From NCBI GenBank assembly GCA_016125385.1, contig WGLV01000004.1, positions 1 through 64,000 on the forward strand: DNA of 64,000 nucleotides, in the 5' to 3' direction. The position numbers and the translations under genes are program-made. This document shows positions 22,140 to 22,669 of this stretch, in pieces. Under the pieces are notes generated by a model. That model made no database searches and had not been told where the DNA came from. It was given only the letters and a program-made list of their open reading frames with translations. The stretch's first letter is position 1. Every line of letters begins with the position of its first letter. This DNA comes from a bacterium. Lineage in GTDB: Bacteria; Hinthialibacterota; Hinthialibacteria; Hinthialibacterales; Hinthialibacteraceae.

Positions 22140-22167
22140 TTGACTATTTCAGGCCGCTGTTTATCCT
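22140..22167 (+). promoter_or_regulatory. Possible sigma-70-type promoter for tRNA-Asn
   Basis: TTGACT (22140-22145), a 16-base spacer, and TATCCT (22162-22167), about 95 bases upstream of the tRNA. The -10 is only a partial match, so this is tentative. Confidence 0.35.
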
Positions 22168-22260: not shown

Positions 22261-22332
22261 TCCCCTGTAGCTCAATGGTAGAGCATTCGGCTGTTAACCG
22301 AAGTGTTGTAGGTTCGAGTCCTACCGGGGGAG
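22261..22332 (+). tRNA. trnN: tRNA-Asn (anticodon GTT)
   Basis: A full cloverleaf folds: acceptor TCCCCTG/CGGGGGA (one T-G pair), D arm GCTC/GAGC, anticodon arm TTCGG-CTGTTAA-CCGAA with anticodon GTT, T arm GTAGG-TTCGAGT-CCTAC, discriminator G. CCA is not encoded. Its last 27 bases plus 3 downstream bases are duplicated exactly at 22640-22669, on the far side of a GIY-YIG nuclease gene. Confidence 0.95.
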
Positions 22333-22669
22333 CATCCTCTCCTCTCCCATTGTCCGCATCCAACCCGTATTTTGTTTATGTTCTTTGTTCCACGACAACC
22401 GGCGAGACGTATGTCGGTCAAACCTCGGATGTGGAACGGCGTCTCGCGCAGCACAATGATCCCGATAATAAACTCACTCTGCACACTAAACGCCGAAAAG
22501 GGCCGTGGATTGTTGTCCACACGGAGGCGTATCCGACTCGTTCCGAAGCCATGAAACGCGAGAAGTATTTCAAAACCGGCCGGGGCCGCGAGGAGTTGAA
22601 ACGCATTCTCAATGACGGCTGTTAATTCGCCGCGGCGAATTGTAGGTTCGAGTCCTACCGGGGGAGCAT
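22306..22669 (+). mobile_element. Putative GIY-YIG cassette bounded by tRNA-Asn 3'-end direct repeats
   Basis: An identical 30-base direct repeat lies at 22306-22335 (end of the tRNA: T arm, 3' acceptor strand, CAT) and at 22640-22669. The 334-base unit between repeat starts holds one complete GIY-YIG ORF. A perfect 18-base palindrome AATTCGCCGCGGCGAATT (22624-22641) overlaps the ORF stop and the first two bases of the right repeat. The arrangement mimics attL/attR of integrative elements but with no integrase; homing by the nuclease is my inference. Confidence 0.65.
22350..22625 (+). CDS. GIY-YIG family endonuclease, small single-domain
   Basis: The frame is open from inside the tRNA gene, but the domain begins only at YFVYVLCSTTTGETYVGQTS. 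The only plausible in-frame start between the tRNA and the domain is TTG at 22350, giving about 91 residues; there is no proper ribosome site. GIY corresponds to YVL, YIG to YVG; the catalytic Arg is in VERRLAQHN and the metal-binding Glu in EAMKREKYFKTGRG, so the active site looks intact. Small proteins of this type (UPF0213/Slx1-like) are common in bacteria with unclear roles; related domains drive homing endonucleases. It lies in the same direction as tRNA-Asn, 17 bases after its end, and could be translated from the tRNA's 3' trailer. The stop lies 14 bases before the second copy of the tRNA end. Confidence 0.85.
   Translation: MSASNPYFVYVLCSTTTGETYVGQTSDVERRLAQHNDPDNKLTLHTKRRKGPWIVVHTEAYPTRSEAMKREKYFKTGRGREELKRILNDGC

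Follow-up and report, generated by a model that had tools for sequence, protein, structure and literature searches.

A GIY-YIG nuclease cassette at a bacterial tRNA-Asn gene, and related candidate mobile elements at other tRNA genes

Few docking sites are used by mobile DNA as commonly as transfer RNA (tRNA) genes, and the established route into these genes requires an integrase. In phages T4 and T6, the GIY-YIG homing endonuclease SegB cuts within tRNA genes, and it lies near tRNAs in many phages (PMC13096335) and is inherited together with the tRNA region (PMC13096335, PMC2988022). The SegB motif is RAWTSGAAC (PMC13096335), which on our own reading is the reverse complement of the T-loop sequence GTTCSAWTY, a term that the paper itself does not use. 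In Caldiarchaeum, a tRNA-Thr fragment flanks a 1.8-kb recombinase element (PMC3293823). Here we describe a cassette of ~330 bp at a tRNA-Asn gene in the first 64,000 nucleotides (here called the window) of contig WGLV01000004.1, assembly GCA_016125385.1, from a bacterium of the phylum Hinthialibacterota. Like the Caldiarchaeum element, it consists of a putatively mobile gene bounded by a tRNA fragment and an intact tRNA, but the Caldiarchaeum element is archaeal, encodes a recombinase, and is a single case. We propose, with a probability of about 0.68, that the cassette is a free-standing homing-endonuclease element that has a tRNA gene as its home and keeps that tRNA working, the cutting being what we infer from sequence. 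It is apparently a widespread and previously undescribed selfish kind; the open PMC literature, with preprints and most subscription papers outside its scope, yielded no description of such an element.

The intact tRNA-Asn(gtt) occupies positions 22261..22333 of the forward strand (ARAGORN; Rfam tRNA, 71.6 bits). No other full tRNA-Asn exists in the 5.5-Mb assembly, where the remaining matches are Lys, Arg, Gln, and Met tRNAs. The tRNA is followed on the same strand by an open reading frame (ORF) for a single-domain GIY-YIG nuclease of 91 aa (22350..22625; TTG start, TAA stop) and then, also on the forward strand, by an exact 30-base copy of the tRNA 3′ end (22640..22669), which runs on into the native downstream flank. 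The resulting direct repeat (22306-22335 and 22640-22669) is 100% identical at a spacing of 334, where shuffled sequence is expected to give none, and the nuclease ORF is the sole gene between the two tRNA copies. ARAGORN, Pfam, and the repeat comparison thus agree with an original prediction that had been made for this locus from the sequence alone. The right-hand copy had been described there as T arm, acceptor strand, and CAT; it is indeed exact over these 30 bases, but it begins earlier, with the anticodon loop (CGGCTGTTAA, 22616..22625 on the forward strand, equivalent to 22288-22297), and reads as anticodon loop, palindrome, T-arm, acceptor, and native downstream flank. The palindrome, AATTCGCCGCGGCGAATT at 22624..22641, is the perfect 18-base one already noted between the ORF stop and the right repeat, and it stands where the 3′ anticodon stem would be; three other loci (L040, L190, and L025) have equivalent hairpins. 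The ORF stop (TAA, 22623-22625) is contained in the copied anticodon loop, an arrangement repeated at L040 and L190, and a right end made up of stop in anticodon loop, hairpin, and T-arm is common to the three closest Asn elements (the window, G280, and G386). The earlier claim that the ORF lacks an ATG and has only TTG 22350 stands in part: this TTG is the first start codon outside the tRNA, but the frame stays open upstream through the tRNA and contains an in-frame ATG at 22275, within the D-loop. The tRNA gene has a probable promoter at 22140..22167 on the forward strand (TTGACT-16 nt-TATCCT), which likely also serves the nuclease ORF. A group I intron with an endonuclease ORF, or another known RNA in the cassette, was considered and rejected, the tRNA being uninterrupted, no Rfam intron family matching at E 1, and Rfam giving no known RNA in the cassette.

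The same tRNA without an adjoining cassette, which the original prediction had proposed to look for in relatives, is present in 12 other genomes of the phylum. In the same-family relative G001, tRNA-Asn lies behind a homologue of the gene upstream of it in the window, and this empty site has a TTGACT..TAATCT element similar to the window promoter. What follows the tRNA in G001 can be aligned to the sequence flanking the right-hand copy in the window (score 26, 0/2000 shuffles) and not to the sequence after the left tRNA (score 11, 1438/2000 shuffles). The native 5′ side is therefore on the left and the native 3′ side on the right, with the cassette and an extra tRNA part between them. By this comparison the window cassette is an insertion at tRNA-Asn, and the 3′ part of the intact tRNA at 22261..22333 was probably supplied by the element. 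Empty and occupied versions of a tRNA-Gln/prs site are also found within one genus, where G388 is empty, the 5′ side is occupied by a nuclease element in G386 and G143, and G387 has a nuclease-free, structured insert of ~100 bases in the T-loop of a 3′ copy. The D-loop of the occupied tRNA-Asn in the window (CAATGGTAG) is 1 base shorter than in all five same-family relatives (G001-G005), possibly a mark of co-conversion, yet the shorter loop is also present in other empty genomes.

The association with tRNA genes recurs well beyond this locus. When the window protein was the only query, an unbiased search returned 22 other loci, and 9 of them have a same-strand tRNA within 150 nt. A larger sample was collected with a profile from 386 mostly draft genomes; because its first seeds were picked for tRNA adjacency, and the profile still leans towards such members, counts were restricted to the 138 non-seed homologues. 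Among these, 36 lie no more than 150 nt from a tRNA on their own strand and 1 from a tRNA on the opposite strand, as against 0.7 expected if genomes have 50 tRNAs per 3 Mb, an excess of ~50-fold, and at profile scores of at least 85 the proportion rises to 14/15. The loci with a same-strand tRNA at this distance span 29 host families and include Asn, Asp, Pro, Ala, Gly, Cys, Ser, Met, Gln, Glu, Lys, Arg, Tyr, Leu, and Phe isotypes. At 46 loci, from 22 host families, part of the tRNA is present a second time. An out-of-sample scan of named genomes with a protein pattern gave one full-length match, in an Akkermansiaceae metagenome-assembled genome, and it lies at a tRNA-Asn with a partial copy; a search of the 10 genomes of the phylum of G143 added nothing. 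Close relatives carrying the gene without flanking tRNA copies, which the original prediction had named as evidence that would count against it, were not encountered, the gene being absent at the tRNA-Asn sites of relatives in the phylum and homologues at other tRNAs having copies. UPF0213-like genes are common in bacteria and many homologues lie away from tRNAs, as they would if the gene were an ordinary host GIY-YIG repair gene lying near duplicated tRNA genes by chance. This explanation is barely credible, however, being contradicted by the same-strand excess with its single opposite-strand case, by the structure of the copies, by the absence of the cassette gene at tRNA-Asn elsewhere in the phylum, and by the clustering of the proteins by isotype (see below).

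The duplicated tRNA parts come in two mirror-image layouts. Where the intact tRNA lies upstream, the second copy retains the tRNA 3′ end in 17/18 loci, and where it lies downstream, the second copy retains the 5′ end in 27/28 loci, usually together with some upstream flank. The copy breakpoint falls most often exactly in the T-loop; in the class with the intact tRNA downstream, the copy ends exactly after the T-loop TTC in 6/28 loci and no more than 5 nt away in 13/28. In both layouts a tRNA 5′ part immediately precedes the nuclease gene and has the same orientation, so that the tRNA promoter would be expected to read the gene. At L025 (5′ of its tRNA-Asn), L190, and L174, an extra hairpin-bearing tRNA copy is found upstream of the intact tRNA, and in places these extra copies have hairpins in the D-arm as well as in the anticodon arm.

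These layouts bear on the idea of a decayed integrative element, according to which the tRNA copies would be the attachment sites attL and attR of an island that has lost its integrase. tRNA 3′ ends are classic integrase targets, and the copy in the window is a 3′ end. As in tyrosine-integrase elements, insertion occurs at a tRNA gene and the tRNA is restored; the present elements differ in having no integrase, in duplicating either the 5′ or the 3′ part, and in decorating the copy with a hairpin. An island remnant is very unlikely, since the 28/46 loci with the intact tRNA downstream and its 5′ end duplicated contradict it, only the nuclease gene lies between the window copies, and the combination of gene and layout is found again, without an integrase, at many isotypes. 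The prediction of an integrase-free element that targets a tRNA gene and restores its end is accordingly upheld by the empty sites and the recurrence, but, as the copied end can be the 5′ one, this is not an att-like duplication of 3′ ends. For the same reason, the expectation of GIY-YIG genes bounded by 3′-end copies of other tRNAs holds as far as partial copies in many host families are concerned, but the copied part is often the 5′ end.

The position of a nuclease in the protein tree tracks the isotype of its tRNA and not its host family, and each lineage tends to be tied to one kind of tRNA, as judged from an 85-column alignment of 58 proteins (one per host family and anticodon) that leaves many forks without resolution. 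Isotype changes 30 times on this tree, as against a mean of 42.4 and a minimum of 37 in shuffles (0/500 as low), whereas host family changes 31 times, as against 32.2 (125/500 as low). Supported clades that unite the same isotype across unrelated hosts were recovered for Asn (97/84 and 100/97), Cys (99/86), Ala (99/89), Gln (100/99), and Ser (97/84), and the nuclease copies of a single genome are dispersed over the tree. Asn-associated proteins of differing lineages have a common 4-residue insertion, HND....T[KR][RQ]..G.W.

The nuclease is one GIY-YIG domain of 85-91 residues. The window ORF scores 66.5 bits against Pfam GIY-YIG (cut-off, 22.6) and contains no other Pfam domain, and the catalytic Y, YxG, R, H, and E are invariant in homologue alignment A1. 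Its structure model has a mean pLDDT (predicted local distance difference test) score of 89.5 and no further domain. The nearest solved relatives by sequence are UPF0213 proteins and SLX1; the UPF0213/COG2827 structure 1zg2 is matched by hmmsearch (E 2.1e-21) and is the top Foldseek match of the model (E 9.7e-4; template modeling [TM] score, ~0.5). Close as they are in sequence and fold, UPF0213 and SLX1 proteins are not known as mobile, whereas the window clade is tied to tRNA genes and has tRNA copies at its flanks. The host genome has one gene of this type, and a 643-aa frame elsewhere contains the other GIY-YIG match. A phage or plasmid origin of the cassette was also considered and rejected, as only distant GIY-YIG matches of <60% identity were found, and the viral-contig relatives have no adjoining tRNA.

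As a homing element, the cassette would be a minimal mobile unit in which a GIY-YIG gene sits beside one tRNA gene, part of which is duplicated. The nuclease would be expressed off the tRNA's own transcript and would cut, within the T-arm or close to it, the cognate tRNA gene of an element-free allele or genome. With an occupied copy as template, recombinational repair would then install the cassette along with whichever tRNA part preserves gene function, leaving one tRNA copy functional and the other as a hairpin-bearing remnant, and the palindrome would probably protect that remnant from cutting or from processing as a tRNA. SegB, likewise encoded by a GIY-YIG gene among tRNA genes, is the best precedent for such homing, but it is a longer phage protein (221 aa), it is reported to have no isotype preference, and neither tRNA half-duplication nor a hairpin remnant has been described for it, whereas the present elements are on bacterial chromosomes. 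A hidden Markov model (HMM) of the family gave no match to the T4 segB region at E 1e-3, which rules out SegB-family membership by sequence. Beside the T4 segB/tRNA cluster, rnaC (L298, 1409-1547) contains a T-arm-like GGGTTCGAATCCC that fits the SegB motif.

Several points weigh against homing. For every member, the nuclease step is itself deduced. Over 72 bases, the intact tRNA of the occupied genome and that of the empty relative G002 share 99% identity, so that the nuclease might be expected to cut its own host's tRNA gene as well, and no cut-resistant, recoded tRNA was seen in the occupied genome. Some tRNA-adjacent homologues have no detectable second copy, and the window protein has no added DNA-binding domain. 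Finally, kinship with UPF0213 and SLX1 is as suggestive of structure-specific as of sequence-specific cutting. It is therefore conceivable, although unlikely, that an SLX1/UPF0213-like enzyme acts on hairpins or cloverleaves of single-stranded tRNA-gene DNA and mobilises tRNA-derived hairpins, in a way comparable to that in which TnpA-REP is thought to mobilise repetitive extragenic palindromes (REPs). Such an enzyme would fit the nearest solved structures, the frequency of hairpins with a stem of at least 6 (34/46 second copies versus 15/46 intact tRNAs), the nuclease-free hairpin elements that adjoin cognate tRNAs, and the REP-like palindromes that flank sibling GIY-YIG genes, but the tracking of tRNA isotype would not be expected of a purely structure-specific enzyme.

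The nuclease-free inserts look like non-autonomous relatives of the nuclease element. A pattern built from the G387 insert occurs at 17 places in 5/10 genomes, with zero in the control; most of these inserts directly follow an intact tRNA on its 3′ side and repeat the 3′ end of that tRNA, and in most cases no nuclease gene is present. At L212, L214, L191, L199, and L202, the intact tRNA is closely followed by tRNA 3′ copies whose T-loop contains a nuclease-free hairpin element, and such elements next to tRNAs are sometimes in tandem. More tentatively, and at somewhat less than even odds, these inserts and the homing elements proposed above may together form a widespread and distinct class of integrase-free elements that live on tRNA genes of bacterial chromosomes, defined by isotype-adapted minimal GIY-YIG lineages, two tRNA-preserving mirror insertions, a hairpin-modified remnant that serves as a functional end, and driven, nuclease-free tRNA-derived relatives resembling miniature inverted-repeat transposable elements. 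A nuclease of 85-90 residues appears sufficient for insertion into a tRNA gene, with host repair completing it, and the isotype-specific clades offer a natural matched set of nucleases and targets for the study of site choice by single-domain GIY-YIG enzymes. Bacterial genomes probably also owe tRNA fragments to these elements.

The small palindromic units, dedicated nuclease, and nuclease-free relatives recall REPs and their REP-associated tyrosine transposases (RAYTs), but the cassette encodes no Y1 (HUH) transposase, and its units are tRNA derived and remain beside the cognate tRNA. The window palindrome was also considered as a dispersed REP and rejected: TTCGCC..GGCGAA occurs at 34 places versus 11 for the reversed control, an excess too mild for a high-copy repeat. 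CGTC REPs are stated to lack a dedicated transposase (PMC3733652). REP-like palindromes of the CGTC/TGTC type flank 5/10 of the UPF0213-like GIY-YIG genes that score <60, as against 0/53 of those adjacent to tRNAs (the flanked loci are L018 in G006, L023 in G018, L028 in G005, L029 in G013, and L030 in G011), and these lower-scoring UPF0213-like nucleases are a candidate mobiliser of CGTC-type REPs.
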